Source: Kangiella sp. HZ709 (GTDB taxonomy: Bacteria > Pseudomonadota > Gammaproteobacteria > Enterobacterales > Kangiellaceae). Taken from it: DNA of 64,000 nt. Position numbers and translations under genes: made by a program. This document shows, one piece after another, positions 13,815-18,895 of the stretch (positions are counted from its first letter, which is position 1; every line of letters starts with the position of its first letter). The notes under the pieces were generated by a model, which was not told the origin of the DNA, did no database searches, and saw nothing but the letters and a program-made list of their open reading frames with translations. The stretch spans positions 186,001-250,000 of the forward strand of contig NZ_WKJC01000001.1 of NCBI RefSeq assembly GCF_009674675.1. The letters are read 5' to 3'.

Positions 13815-14552
13815 ATGTTTGAACGAATTAAAGAAGATATCAAAAGTGTTTATCATCGTGATCCGTCGGCGAGAAATAACTTTGAAGTGCTAACACTTTA
13901 TCCTGGCTTGCATGCTATCTGGTGGTACCGCCTGACTAATAAGTTATGGCGTAAAAATTGGAAATGGCTTGCTCGCGCCATTATGACTTTTGCTCGCTTT
14001 TTAACGGGCATCGAAATTCACCCGGGAGCTACTATTGGTCGCCGCTTCTTTATCGATCATGGCTTAGGTGTTGTGATTGGAGAAACCGCGGAAATTGGCG
14101 ATGATTGCATGCTATACCATGGTGTAACTCTCGGCGGTACCAGTCTAGCTAAAGGCAAACGCCATCCAACTTTGAAAAACAATGTGGTGGTTGGTGCTGG
14201 AGCAAAAATTCTAGGCCCCGTTATTTTAAATGATAATGCCAAGGTGGGCGGCAATGCGGTGGTCGTTAAAGATGTCGCTGAAAATGCTACCGTCATTGGT
14301 ATCCCTGCTCGCGAAGCTTCTGAAACTGATCCTAAGGGCAAGCATAATTTCCAAGCTTTTGGTGTTACATCTGATCAAATTGATCCATTAGTGGTTGCTC
14401 TACAAAACATGTTTGAACACTCCAATGCTTTAGAGCATGAGTTAAAAGGTCTTAAAGACCAATTAAAAGAAAAGGGCATAGAAACTAAAGATATCGATAT
14501 ACCAGAGCTGGATTGTTCAGGTGTGTTGAATGGAGAGTCAGAAAAAAGTTAA
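13815..14552 (+). CDS. cysE: Serine O-acetyltransferase
   Basis: This 245-aa enzyme acetylates L-serine with acetyl-CoA, the first step of cysteine synthesis. A short helical N terminus ([20 protein letters not shown]) is followed by a left-handed beta-helix of hexapeptide repeats ([27 protein letters not shown] and onwards). The active-site DH pair is in FIDHGLGV and the HGVTLGG loop. The C-terminal tail ends in [13 protein letters not shown] and lacks the terminal Ile typical of CysK-binding CysE proteins. In some bacteria cysE lies just before iscR; here about 5 kb of unrelated genes intervene. Confidence 0.93.
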
Positions 14553-14675
14553 GACTAGTGGAGTGACTCTATAGTAATTTCTGCGTGTTAAATCCATTGT
14601 TACAAACTAGCCCTAATTCTTTACAAGCTTGTTTTGTATGATGTATCTATGCATCAGAGAAGGGATAAATATTTA

Positions 14676-16151
14676 ATGAAAAATTCAGCCACCAAAATCT
14701 TTTTAATATTCCTTTGTATAGTATTTCCAATCCATATCGTATCAGCTAAAACAGCTTCATCATCAGCAGATCAATTGGAAGTGGAGTTCAAGACAAATGA
14801 AGTTCATGGGCTTTATAATTTCGTTCAAGGTATCGCAGGTGGTCCGGGCGGCACTTCTCCAACTTTGACAGAATTGTTTGAAGGCAGTGAATACAACAAC
14901 GATAAAAATCAAGCACTGATTGAACGTTATAGAAAGATCAATATTTCTTATGATTATGCGTTTTCAGAAGATGTGGCTCATAGACACAACAAGCGTCAAG
15001 TGACACAGCTTTTAGTGATGGCCTCTACCCAAGCATCGAATATTGATGACTTCACGCAACGTATCATGGGCTTGTTAACTAATTCTGATTTAATGGTATT
15101 AGTCGAGACTTTGAATGCTTTTAGGCCTATTTATAAAGAGTTAATTTGGGACAAGTCCCAGCCTCAACTTAAAAGAAATATTCAAATTCTAACTGAGCGC
15201 GCTAAAGAGGTAGACTTTGCAGGACGTTTCGCTAAGGCTTCCAAATTTTATAAAGCCAATTGGAAAGCTGAGATCCCATTTAAGGTTTATCTAGCACCGA
15301 TACCACAAAAGGGTGGTTTTACCACAGCCACCCCTCAGGGCAATATCATTTCTTATATTATTAGTGATTTTGATGATGCTGATGGAGTATTAGCGGTCGT
15401 GTTCCATGAATTGGCGCACCTGTTATACTCTAGTCAATCCATCGAGCTTCAAGCACAACTTGAAAAAAGTTTTTTAGAACACGACTCTTACCATAAAGCA
15501 CATTCTTACCAACTCTTGAATGAAGCTTTGGCGACGGCTATAGGTAATGGTTGGTTCTACAAAGAAACCAATGGGAGCTTAGATGCAAAAGATTGGTACC
15601 ACTCTAAATATATCAATCAACAGGCAAAAGCTATTTATCCCTTAGTAGAACAGTATCTTTTATCAGAAAAATCAATAGATGCTGATTTCGTTGACGACTA
15701 TATCGATCAATATGCCAAGAATTTTCCTAAAGGTTACTTACAGCCAGAAAGTTTTTTAGCCAACGTTTCCTTCTTAGCAGATAAAGATTTTCACGAACAC
15801 AATAAGTTGTTTCAGTTGTTTTTTGAGCACCAGCGAACTGTCAGAAGTTTAAATGTCCAAACCCCTTTCTTTAATGAAGAGGCCATGAGTAAGTTTAATG
15901 GCGCTATTAATGCCAAAATGATTCTTATCACTGACAAGCATAAAGAAAATTTTACTAAGTTCATCGAGTACTACCCAGGGTTAGAAAAAGCTAAGCTCCC
16001 TGATGGTGAGTTTGTTTTGCATAGTTTAATTCCAGATGGCACCATGTTATTGATAGTGAGTATTAATAGCTTGGACTCTTTTGGCAAAGCTATGAAAGCA
16101 CTTACCGATAAAGAAGTGTTGGATGAATATATTCGGATTATTGAACTTTAG
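14676..16151 (+). CDS. Exported HExxH metalloprotease-like protein
   Basis: This 491-aa protein starts with a signal peptide (MKNSATKIFLIFLCIVFPIH, cleavage after about VSA). A zinc-site motif HELAH lies at residues 244-248, and an NEALA segment 38 residues later puts a Glu (E283) where gluzincins hold their third zinc ligand. No family could be named with confidence. The start at 14676 fits the signal peptide; in-frame codons upstream (14634 TTG, 14649 ATG) would bury it behind a charged leader. It is the first gene of the accessory stretch between cysE and iscR. A peptidase role in the periplasm or outside the cell is inference from the zinc motif. Confidence 0.65.
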   Translation: MKNSATKIFLIFLCIVFPIHIVSAKTASSSADQLEVEFKTNEVHGLYNFVQGIAGGPGGTSPTLTELFEGSEYNNDKNQALIERYRKINISYDYAFSEDVAHRHNKRQVTQLLVMASTQASNIDDFTQRIMGLLTNSDLMVLVETLNAFRPIYKELIWDKSQPQLKRNIQILTERAKEVDFAGRFAKASKFYKANWKAEIPFKVYLAPIPQKGGFTTATPQGNIISYIISDFDDADGVLAVVFHELAHLLYSSQSIELQAQLEKSFLEHDSYHKAHSYQLLNEALATAIGNGWFYKETNGSLDAKDWYHSKYINQQAKAIYPLVEQYLLSEKSIDADFVDDYIDQYAKNFPKGYLQPESFLANVSFLADKDFHEHNKLFQLFFEHQRTVRSLNVQTPFFNEEAMSKFNGAINAKMILITDKHKENFTKFIEYYPGLEKAKLPDGEFVLHSLIPDGTMLLIVSINSLDSFGKAMKALTDKEVLDEYIRIIEL

Positions 16152-16267
16152 CATGGGCTTTCTTAACTGGTTACCTGTAACCTGTTTTTAACCTAGGGTT
16201 AATCAAGCTGTCATATTGCATCATTACTATAAATTTACTTTAATAAATTCTTGTTAAGAGGAATAAC

Positions 16268-17533
16268 ATGAAATCTGTAAATTTATTCGCAATAGGACTT
16301 GGTATTTTAATTTCTGCAAATACAGCGTCGGCCTCCATTGCGATAGTGTCTAATGGAAATGATAATGGTGCGGGTTCATTAAGAGCGGCTTTAGAAAGTG
16401 GTGCCAATGTCATTCGTATTAATCCCAAAGTGCAAATGATCAACCTTACTCAGCCTTTGAGTTATGAGAACCCGTATAAACTACACATTGTTGGTAAGGG
16501 TCAAACGATCAATGCCATGGCGTTAGAGCCTAACGCTGATATTTTAAGTATCAACGGAGCAGGGGATTTATTGATTTCAAATCTGAAATTTATCGGTAGT
16601 TACGATACTGTTAATCAAAACCCTGCGCTTCCAGTCAGCGGCAAGGGCATTGAAATCAATGTTCCTGCGAATGCTACTGGCTCTGTTAATGTCGAGTTTA
16701 AGAATATATTTTTAACCAAAGTTGGACATCATGGTATCCATATTTCTGATTGCAGTTTTGGTGATGATTGTGGCGGTGGTAGCGGTGGCGGCGGCAATGG
16801 CTCTGCTGCTTCTGTAAAAGTGAAGATCATTAATAGTGAAATTAATAATGTTGGTTTCGGTCGCGCGGATGCTGATGGCGTTAGAGTCGATGAACGCGGT
16901 TTAGGTAATATCTATTTCACCGCAAAAGATTCTACTTTTACCAATGTTGGCGCGGACGGTGTGGAACTAGATGAAGGTAACCAAGGCGATGTCATTAGTA
17001 ATGTCAGCGGCAGTTTGTTTATTCGAAATGGTGAATATTGCAACCTAGTTGAGAATTTTGCAGGCGGTCCTTGCGATGATGATGGTGACCGAGATGTCGA
17101 TGATGGTTTTGATATTGATGAAGCGGGTGATGGTAATTTAATTAGTCGCGTGACCAATAGCCAAGTCAATAACAACTTCGACGAAGGTTTGGATTTCGAC
17201 GAAGAAGATAATGGCAACTTAAAATCTATCGTCGTTGATACGGTTGGGTTTGGAAATCAGGACGAAGCTTTCAAAATGTCTGAAGAAGGTAATGGCCATT
17301 TGAATGTAAGGCTCAAGAAAATATCTACTTTCGACAATAATGGCTCTAAAGAGGGCATCGAATTGGAAGAGGCCGATGCGGGCAACGTCGATGTCCAAGT
17401 TAGCAAAAGCTTAATGATTGGTGGCGACGATGAGTTACTAAAAATTGAGCAAGAAGATGCAGGTAAAGGAAAAGTCAAAATCAGTAACTCCACTTTAGGC
17501 GGATTAGACTTGAAGAATATTGAGCAAAAATAA
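16268..17533 (+). CDS. Secreted acidic beta-helix repeat protein
   Basis: This 421-aa protein has a signal peptide (cleavage near NTASA). A parallel beta-helix N-terminal cap follows (NGNDNGAGSLRAAL, as in CSLREA/pectate-lyase-like proteins). From about residue 195 to the end it is built of 26-28-residue coils. Each reads roughly DG/DE-x-hydrophobic-x-hydrophobic-D/E-E-x-x-x-G-N-hydrophobic-x-x-x-hydrophobic. I count about seven, one interrupted by a Cys-flanked DDDGDRDVDD insert resembling a calcium loop. A glycine-rich GGGSGGGGNG patch sits near residue 175. It is strikingly acidic. A calcium- or surface-binding extracellular protein is plausible but unproven. AGAGGAATAAC before ATG 16268 is the ribosome site. 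Confidence 0.7.
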   Translation: MKSVNLFAIGLGILISANTASASIAIVSNGNDNGAGSLRAALESGANVIRINPKVQMINLTQPLSYENPYKLHIVGKGQTINAMALEPNADILSINGAGDLLISNLKFIGSYDTVNQNPALPVSGKGIEINVPANATGSVNVEFKNIFLTKVGHHGIHISDCSFGDDCGGGSGGGGNGSAASVKVKIINSEINNVGFGRADADGVRVDERGLGNIYFTAKDSTFTNVGADGVELDEGNQGDVISNVSGSLFIRNGEYCNLVENFAGGPCDDDGDRDVDDGFDIDEAGDGNLISRVTNSQVNNNFDEGLDFDEEDNGNLKSIVVDTVGFGNQDEAFKMSEEGNGHLNVRLKKISTFDNNGSKEGIELEEADAGNVDVQVSKSLMIGGDDELLKIEQEDAGKGKVKISNSTLGGLDLKNIEQK

Positions 17534-17566
17534 TTTAGCGCCTTTATAAAATATGTTTTATATTCA

Positions 17567-17595
17567 CTAGCCTTAGTTTTACTAAGGCTAGTTTT
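17567..17595 (+). terminator. Terminator after the beta-helix gene
   Basis: CTAGCCTTAG and CTAAGGCTAG form a perfect 10-bp stem with a 5-base loop, followed by TTTT-A-TTTA. It begins 34 bases after the stop codon. Confidence 0.85.
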
Positions 17596-17773
17596 ATTTA
17601 TAATATCTTCTCTAAGATTATCGTTCGAATATGCTATTCCCCAGAGCTTAGCTAATTTTTACAGTAACTATTACAAATTTCTGCCAAAGAATCACCTTGT
17701 TACAAAAGCTAACTAAATTTTAGCTCTTATATGAGTACAATAACTCCAACCCTGATTAATAAAAAATCTAAAC

Positions 17774-18895
17774 ATGCACTTTATATTTAAATTCCTTATT
17801 GGTTTTGTTGTTGTTGCCTTGGTAATAGTTATTATTGGACTTGTTATTTTAAAGTATGTAACACCTGATAAATTAAAGTTGCCAAAAGGTGCAACCAGGG
17901 ATGAAAAAGTTGCAATGCTAGATGAATGGTTAAACAATCTTCACTCAACCAATCAATTCAATGGCTCTGTTTTAATAGCTAGAGATGGAGATATAATTCT
18001 TAATAAATCATACGGGTATGCAGATTTAGCAAAGAAACAGCCCCTCAGTCAACAATCATCTTTTAACTTAGCTTCATTATCCAAGCCTTTTACAGCACTA
18101 GGGGTATTGATGTTAGTTGAAGAAGGTAAGCTTACATTAGATGAGTCAGTGGTTACCTATTTGCCATCGATAAATTATCCCCAAATAACCATAAGGCATT
18201 TACTCAATCATAATTCTGGTTTACCTGATTATATGGAGCTTGCCAGTCAACACTGGGAAGATAAAAATGTAGTTTTTAAGAGCTCAGATTTATTGGATTT
18301 ATATAGTCAACATCAGCCTGAGCTACTTTTTAAACCTGGTGATAAGCACAAATATAGCAATACCGGTTACGTGGTTTTAGCGGCCTTAATTGAAGAGGTT
18401 TCAGGAATGTCATTTGAAGATTATATGGATAAAAAGGTATTTATCCCCGTAGGTATGAATGATACTTCGGTGTTTAATTTGTTGTCGGACGAAAACAAAC
18501 TCGAAAACAGAGTATGGGGAACTGATGGTGAAGAGCTAAACGATCTTATGTATTTAGATGGGGTGGCTGGCGATGGTGGGATTTATTCTACTACCCATGA
18601 TTTATTAAAATGGACTATAGCTTTAGATAGCGAAAAGCTTATTTCTAAAGAGTTACTAGAAGAGGCTTATTCTCCAGGAAAGCTTAATTCTGGTAAAAGT
18701 ACCGATTACGGATTTGGCTGGATTGTAGAAGATAAAAATGTCTATTGGCACAATGGGGGTTGGGTAGGCTTTTCTAGTCTATTGAGAAAAGATTTAAACA
18801 CTGATTCCACGGTGATATTTTTAGACAGCGGCTCAAATTCACTGTCATCATTATACATTGAAGGAACTCTTGTAAAATTTATAAAAAAATTCTAA
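17774..18895 (+). CDS. Beta-lactamase-fold serine hydrolase (class C/esterase type)
   Basis: This 373-aa protein has one N-terminal membrane helix (residues 3-27) anchoring a periplasmic beta-lactamase/D-Ala-D-Ala peptidase fold. The nucleophile motif SxxK is S101-L-S-K104, the second motif YSN is 194-196, and the third is HNGG near residue 328 in place of KTG. That HxG form is common in esterases and D-aminopeptidases of this superfamily, so antibiotic hydrolysis is not implied. The substrate is unknown. The gene lies alone between a terminator and a convergent VF530 gene. Confidence 0.82.
   Translation: MHFIFKFLIGFVVVALVIVIIGLVILKYVTPDKLKLPKGATRDEKVAMLDEWLNNLHSTNQFNGSVLIARDGDIILNKSYGYADLAKKQPLSQQSSFNLASLSKPFTALGVLMLVEEGKLTLDESVVTYLPSINYPQITIRHLLNHNSGLPDYMELASQHWEDKNVVFKSSDLLDLYSQHQPELLFKPGDKHKYSNTGYVVLAALIEEVSGMSFEDYMDKKVFIPVGMNDTSVFNLLSDENKLENRVWGTDGEELNDLMYLDGVAGDGGIYSTTHDLLKWTIALDSEKLISKELLEEAYSPGKLNSGKSTDYGFGWIVEDKNVYWHNGGWVGFSSLLRKDLNTDSTVIFLDSGSNSLSSLYIEGTLVKFIKKF

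Follow-up and report, generated by a model that had tools for sequence, protein, structure and literature searches.

Right-handed parallel beta-helix proteins of the pectin-lyase-like fold are built from coils of about 22-30 residues, each laid out as PB1-T1-PB2-T2-PB3-T3, and the usual lyase site is less acidic than a face with fixed acids in four consecutive coils. The active site of beta-helix lyases is reported to lie on PB1 (PMC6879350), and the activity of RbmB, a polysaccharide lyase of Vibrio cholerae, in the presence of calcium is reported to be roughly double that seen after treatment with EDTA or EGTA (PMC11637428). In the pectate lyases PL3 and PL9 the acids of the Ca2+ site are followed along the sequence by a catalytic lysine, Asp63/Glu83/Asp84 by Lys107 and Asp209/Asp233/Asp237 by Lys273 (PMC10992409). 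The alginate lyase PsAly has a cleft formed by PB1, T1 and T3, which is lined by conserved charged residues and holds cations (PMC6796002), and the mannuronan C-5 epimerases have DPHD as their catalytic motif (PMC4444821).

Analysis of the window, by which we mean the whole stretch of 64,000 nucleotides of Kangiella sp. HZ709 that was analysed, revealed on the forward strand an ORF with an ATG start at 16268-17533 (stop codon included; ORF listing of the window) that codes for 421 aa and that the family searches and the structure model identify as a probable acidic right-handed beta-helix protein. The protein is apparently exported, having a signal-peptide-like N-terminus: a putative signal peptide, read from a hydrophobic segment at residues 1-22 (16268-16333), shows a basic start, a hydrophobic core and ASA before the cut. 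The N-cap (NDNGAGSLRAAL) and the first, less acidic coils follow at residues 23-154 (16334-16729), as delimited from the structure model and weak N-cap similarities. Residues 191-421 (231 residues) contain 51 D+E vs 20 K+R, and the pI of the mature protein is about 4.3. Directly 3' of the gene lies a terminator-like hairpin of 12 pairs (17566-17592) with a T-rich tail (the whole at 17566-17602, forward strand), one of 2 sites detected in a hairpin scan of 16100-17800, where shuffled sequences gave a mean of 0.8 (sd 0.8).

Judged from sequence similarity, the protein belongs to an unnamed family for which neither Pfam nor NCBIfam has a matching model. The scan of genome contigs detected only a sister copy, 95% identical to the window protein, on a contig of an uncultured Kangiella sp., and relatives beyond it surfaced only in a two-row profile search of the class sample. 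The gene was found in 2 of the 20 genomes of the genus sample and in the same 2 among the 295 of the order sample, in 6/369 genomes of the class sample (E<=1e-8) and in 4/299 of the phylum sample (E<=1e-6), the last two counts including the window's own genome. The further samples gave 3/120 for family f236, 9/54 for the order of G498, 1/2 for the order of G517 and 19/390 for the order of G855, all of the latter within f236. Counting each genome once across these overlapping samples, the family occurs in 36 genomes, thinly distributed across the class of the window and within a single family (f236) of a second class. An alignable row was obtained from 35 of them, G1068 (L041) being excluded with a gene cut by the contig end; locus L003 was omitted, its contig being identical to that of L002. 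The identity to the window protein was 30-42% in the first alignment of 19 rows, the sister copy aside, and 33-42% in 16 further rows. Nine candidates from the two-row search (G369, G398, G435, G495, G558, G559, G570, G622 and G644; E 8.8e-4 to 0.043) were rejected, none reaching E<=1e-8 with the 19-row profile.

The window protein had no tblastn match at E<=0.1 in plasmids or phages, two relatives had none in plasmids either, and no match in viral contigs was obtained with a single sequence or a 7-row profile. It matched 0 Pfam families, and the only hit of the PDB sequence search was a designed repeat protein (E 0.26). The Pfam Beta_helix model PF13229 was detected in 2/19 rows at E<=0.01, the scores seen (20.2 and 16.5 bits) lying below the cut-off of 25.9, while NCBIfam matched 0/19 rows and no lyase, hydrolase or epimerase model of Pfam or NCBIfam matched any of the 19 rows scanned against each. 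The N-cap alone showed weak similarity to VexL (family profile, E 0.097), and of four proteins searched against PHROG one, a relative, matched a PHROG named pectate lyase (E 8.5e-6), this within residues 24-113 of the N-cap alone, and another one named hydrolase (E 0.0043) in region 32-101. No description of this family was recognised in the open-licence literature on Kangiella beta-helices, acidic or calcium-binding beta-helices and acidic grooves. The initial annotation had recognised no characterised homologue, and this still holds for Pfam, NCBIfam and the PDB, where no family with a different function was matched by sequence.

The AlphaFold2 model of the window protein is a beta-helix composed mostly of beta-strands (pLDDT 62.6, pTM 0.71), so that the solenoid proposed from the sequence was returned by structure prediction, at a modest confidence given an alignment of only the window protein and its near-identical sister copy. 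The two loops that bear Cys residues (164-178 and 258-277) are among the regions with pLDDT below 50. A shorter construct (residues 125-421) scored lower (pLDDT 56.3) and gave the same kind of matches, with RbmB at Z 19.7. Foldseek returned four matches at E<=0.001, namely two chains of the GH136 lacto-N-biosidase, PsAly (PDB 6kfn; rank 2, E 5.5e-4, 14% identity over the alignment) and RbmB. Among the VIA-align matches listed, RbmB (PDB 9ozl, 9ozd) scored Z 28.3 (rmsd 3.3), the fold being common over most of the chain (312 aligned residues) at 11% identity in the structural alignment, with no sequence-level match in the PDB searches. The others listed included the adhesin PfbA (PDB 3zpp, 4mr0; Z 27.9, 15% identity), the epimerases AlgE6 (Z 27.4) and AlgG (up to 25.6), the polygalacturonase PGLR (Z 27.1), the NosD complexes 7o17_A and 7osf_A (Z 24.5) and tailspikes, and many of the top PDB matches listed were glycan-active beta-helices; the identity among the best 50 was 8-16%. 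With Z up to 28.3 over 312 residues at a pLDDT of only 62.6, and with a coil period of 27 that falls in the range of the pectin-lyase-like fold, a right-handed parallel beta-helix of this fold is clearly predicted for the 421-aa protein.

This fold does not by itself indicate function, since the scores of an adhesin, of tailspikes and of NosD come close to those of the glycan-active enzymes. Membership in the AlgG/AlgE epimerases, which share the fold in AlgG and in the A-module of AlgE, was rejected: the strand GFDIDE of the window protein resembles the AlgG/AlgE catalytic strand bearing DPHD, and DPH[DE] is absent in 35/35 rows. The two NosD complexes might also be read as pointing to a NosD-like role of the beta-helix in handling metal in the periplasm; neither NosD nor any other metal-handling family was matched in Pfam or NCBIfam, however, and 0/20 flanking ORFs scanned match a NosD-type transport family, and we regard such a role as highly improbable.

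Self-similarity analysis of residues 191-421 gave a top lag of 27 (z 7.8), a strength reached by 0/500 shuffles at any lag of 10-79. Seven acidic-pattern coils start at residues 203, 230, 279, 306, 333, 362 and 389, which agrees in number with the about seven acidic coils first annotated in this ORF. The length of 26-28 residues given to them then applies to most coils, the spacings being 27, 49, 27, 27, 29 and 27; one coil is of 29, and the spacing of 49 between coils 2 and 3 is made of one 27-residue coil and a 22-residue insert. The acidic pattern previously written DE-x-G-N does recur and is better written as D-G-x-charged-x-[DE]-E-x3-G, from which coils 4 to 7 deviate in places. Within coils 1-5, variable hydrophobic residues occupy +2 and +4, a fixed charged residue +3, Asp (coils 1-4) or mostly Ser (coil 5) +5, mostly Glu +6 and Gly +10. 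The order within a coil is a strand, a T1-like turn (DExxxG), a strand, a short turn (NS or GS), a short strand and an N-G turn; set against the repeat layout of beta-helices, this pattern fits PB1-T1-PB2-T2-PB3-T3 and would place the acidic strand on PB1. By beta-strand alternation the residues at +3 and +5 should point outward.

Alignment of the family revealed that the +3 column carries one residue per successive coil in the order H158-R206-E233-D282-D309-K336. R206, E233, D282, D309 and K336 were identical in 35/35 rows and H158 in 34/35; the sole row with Y at 158 is L007, which was retained although its N-terminus is unconvincing and its end divergent. In the +5 column D208, D235 and D311 were found in 35/35 rows and D284 in 34/35. 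The conserved residues are carried by the coil of H158 and D161 (D161 in 35/35), which continues into C162-x5-C168 and a Gly-rich loop (residues 155-178; 16730-16801), by acidic coil 1 with R206 and D208 (residues 203-229; 16874-16954), coil 2 with E233, D235 and E236 (residues 230-256; 16955-17035), coil 3 with D282 and D284 (residues 279-305; 17102-17182), coil 4 with D309, D311 and E312 (residues 306-332; 17183-17263) and coil 5 with K336 and E339 (residues 333-361; 17264-17350). The hydrophobic letters between the fixed charged residues vary more, and the same columns are variable among relatives in the coil preceding H158 and in coils 6 and 7, which form with the C-terminal end, as read from the sequence, residues 362-421 (17351-17530). 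The later 16 rows, gathered after the pattern had been seen on the first 19, kept H158, R206, E233, D282, D309 and K336 in 16/16; this is a partial check because these rows were fetched with the 19-row profile and all come from the single family f236.

Over 12 positions of coils 1-5, coils matched their own orthologues at 75% vs 45% among coils within one protein, and therefore each coil has its own identity, unlike the members of a ladder of interchangeable calcium turns. The annotated stacking of carboxylates along one face of the helix is accordingly retained in part: acids do recur at the same register of successive coils, and the stacking is likely real, but the ladder is not uniform and interchangeable, its fixed residues being coil-specific and two of them basic. 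For the same reason the charged row looks, from the alignment, like a defined site on PB1, which suits the fixed residues better than a generic calcium- or surface-binding ladder. The protein could still be a non-catalytic solenoid stabilised by Ca2+, in which Ca2+ held between coils by the stacked acids would add rigidity to a spacer or adhesin, secreted or periplasmic. Such a role is consistent with the acids at +5 (coils 1-4) and +6 and the Gly at +10 that recur in coils 1-5, with the very acidic composition and with the presence of PfbA among the best structural matches, while coil-specific fixed residues, and basic R206 and K336 among them, are not expected of interchangeable structural sites, and no sorting tail and no surface or wall anchor was noticed on reading the 421-aa protein, which in this respect differs from PfbA. 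We consider a purely structural Ca2+ role possible, if unlikely. An RTX beta-roll was rejected, given the period of 27, the absence of GGxGxD in the window protein and the absence of the longer nonapeptide motif (GGxGxDxUx) in 35/35 rows.

The net charge of about -33 at pH 7.5 and the fixed outward acids might alternatively suit a metal-free acidic groove that holds a positive polymer or peptide, for instance a deacetylated amino-sugar polysaccharide. The two basic residues R206 and K336, fixed in the very same row, argue against a cationic ligand, as does a gene context that lends it no support, and this alternative appears improbable to us.

The insert between coils 2 and 3 (residues 257-278; 17036-17101), most of it within a region of pLDDT below 50, contains Y257, C258, C269 and a variable DDDGDRDVD stretch. 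The Cys-flanked DDDGDRDVDD of the initial annotation exists as a Cys pair and as a stretch, but C258 and C269 enclose NLVENFAGGP, and DDDGDRDVDD comes after the second Cys and is not conserved. In the sister Kangiella one of its residues is changed (D274 to Q), and among the remaining relatives the letters differ and the insert is either missing or longer. The conserved part comprises the last residues only, D276 and D279 in 35/35 rows and D278 in 34/35; Y257 was likewise found in 35/35. Since the stretch varies among relatives, DDDGDRDVDD was dropped as a family-wide calcium site, whether of the EF-hand or of the thrombospondin-3-like pattern. The 16 later rows were aligned at a fixed alignment length with insert letters dropped, and column 269 there reads D, the second Cys of the insert lying elsewhere in these relatives. 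Of the other Cys pair, C162 was present in 17/19 and C168 in 16/19 of the first rows, and both were present in 16/16 later rows.

Taking these comparisons together, we tentatively favour a metal-assisted (probably Ca2+) protein that binds or cleaves polysaccharide, to which we would give somewhat less than an even chance. We infer that the PB1 face may form one highly charged site over about six coils, made of H158, R206 with D208, E233 with D235, D282 with D284, D309 with D311, and K336. The paired carboxylates of the neighbouring coils 2 to 4 would hold at least one divalent cation, probably Ca2+. Together with the basic residues R206 and K336 on either side, this metal would grip the acidic groups that an extracellular polysaccharide carries, and it may contribute to cleavage, as in Ca2+-dependent lyases. 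The order of acids followed by Lys or Arg in the beta-helical pectate lyases PL3, PL9 and PL1 (PMC10992409) appears to be resembled by D282-D309-K336, which are 27 residues apart in the window protein and fixed in this order in 35/35 rows. Pectate lyases differ, however, in that the window family matches none of their Pfam or NCBIfam models and has fixed acids spanning four consecutive coils (1-4), and this face, more acidic than the usual lyase site, counts against a lyase-type reading. The lack of a match to lyase, hydrolase or epimerase models and of a polysaccharide gene cluster at the loci examined below likewise counts against the reading that we favour.

Five Kangiella strains are reported to have no predicted carbohydrate transporters, a poor carbohydrate metabolism and a richness in proteases, and to live on proteins; for one of the five a capsule gene cluster is predicted (PMC6000758). 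This makes a polysaccharide enzyme for nutrition less likely in this host and leaves as candidates glycans of the matrix or surface, or calcium binding by itself; under the polysaccharide reading, a glycan of the surface or matrix is a likelier target in Kangiella than food. A bolder form of this proposal, in our opinion rather doubtful, is a new beta-helix carbohydrate-active family whose six-coil H-R-E-D-D-K row and paired carboxylates hold at least two Ca2+ and edit an acidic exopolysaccharide, including in bacteria whose food is not polysaccharide. The unnamed family is now defined by a sharp signature, one presumably outward residue per coil that is fixed across distant bacteria, and what was a hypothetical acidic repeat protein becomes a set of point mutants with a glycan and metal screen. 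If it proves to be an enzyme, a new carbohydrate-active family would be gained; if it only binds calcium, it would provide a clean model for carboxylate stacking on a beta-helix.

No constant gene partner and no polysaccharide gene cluster was seen among 20 ORFs in 10 loci or in an all-against-all comparison of the ORFs of 35 loci. At least three of the 20 ORFs (L046:3749-4606, L046:6221-8938 and L047:3386-4873) are antisense to likelier genes, so the scans of these neighbours say little. The Pfam names in the 10 loci include a chaperonin, an AMP-binding enzyme, a xanthine/uracil-type permease, an Lhr-type helicase, a kinase-PEGA-FGE fusion, GDPD, peptidase M24 and several DUFs. In a second look at neighbours, covering 32 loci outside Kangiella, the adjoining gene in different f236 genomes was what we take to be GroEL, ribosomal protein S2, glycine hydroxymethyltransferase or peptide-transport genes, and no gene was constant here either. 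The groups of the 35-locus comparison, which contains many overlapping or antisense ORFs, were confined, where looked at, to related genomes. The serine acetyltransferase gene cysE was near the gene in 5/35 loci across both classes: it lies one gene upstream of the beta-helix gene in both Kangiella loci (window 13815-14552) and directly upstream on the same strand in the f236 genomes G928, G1087 and G1254 (L046, L079 and L082), whose products are 37-39% identical to the window's. The proximity of cysE may be due to chance or reflect a link. An SDR-like dehydrogenase ORF group (G1008, G662, G817 and G840) also joins both classes. At the locus of G517, a protein kinase-PEGA-FGE-sulfatase fusion (L024:4413-7190) is encoded directly upstream of the relative's gene.

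The gene upstream of the beta-helix gene (window 14634-16151, forward strand) codes for an exported-looking protein of 505 aa without a Pfam or NCBIfam match above cut-off, whose HELAH we take to be an HExxH zinc-protease-like motif. It was found in 4/20 genus genomes; in G014 one stop is reported within the alignment. Downstream, at 17774-18895 (forward strand), a serine beta-lactamase-family protein is encoded (PF00144, E 4.8e-64).

Comparison of the two Kangiella copies of the beta-helix gene gave dN 0.022, dS 0.162 and dN/dS 0.133, which indicates purifying selection on the protein. In the family tree the Kangiella pair stands on a long, fully supported branch, and several forks among the other rows are left open. 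In genome G013, 139 bases separate the matched stretches of the 505-aa and VF530 genes, and neither the beta-helix nor the beta-lactamase-like gene lies there. This arrangement and the absence of the gene from 18 of the 20 genus genomes, 2 of the 20 being less than 90% complete, make a gain in the lineage of the two Kangiella species likelier than a loss in the others. The beta-lactamase-family protein is 69% identical in the sister genome vs 95% for the beta-helix protein, with a dS of 2.3, near saturation; its gene either evolves much more rapidly than those beside it or has undergone replacement. At 0.32-0.35 (window vs L002), the dS of trmJ, cysE and the 505-aa gene is about twice that of the beta-helix gene, whose low value could result from recombination, from strong codon use or from a shared origin at a later date.
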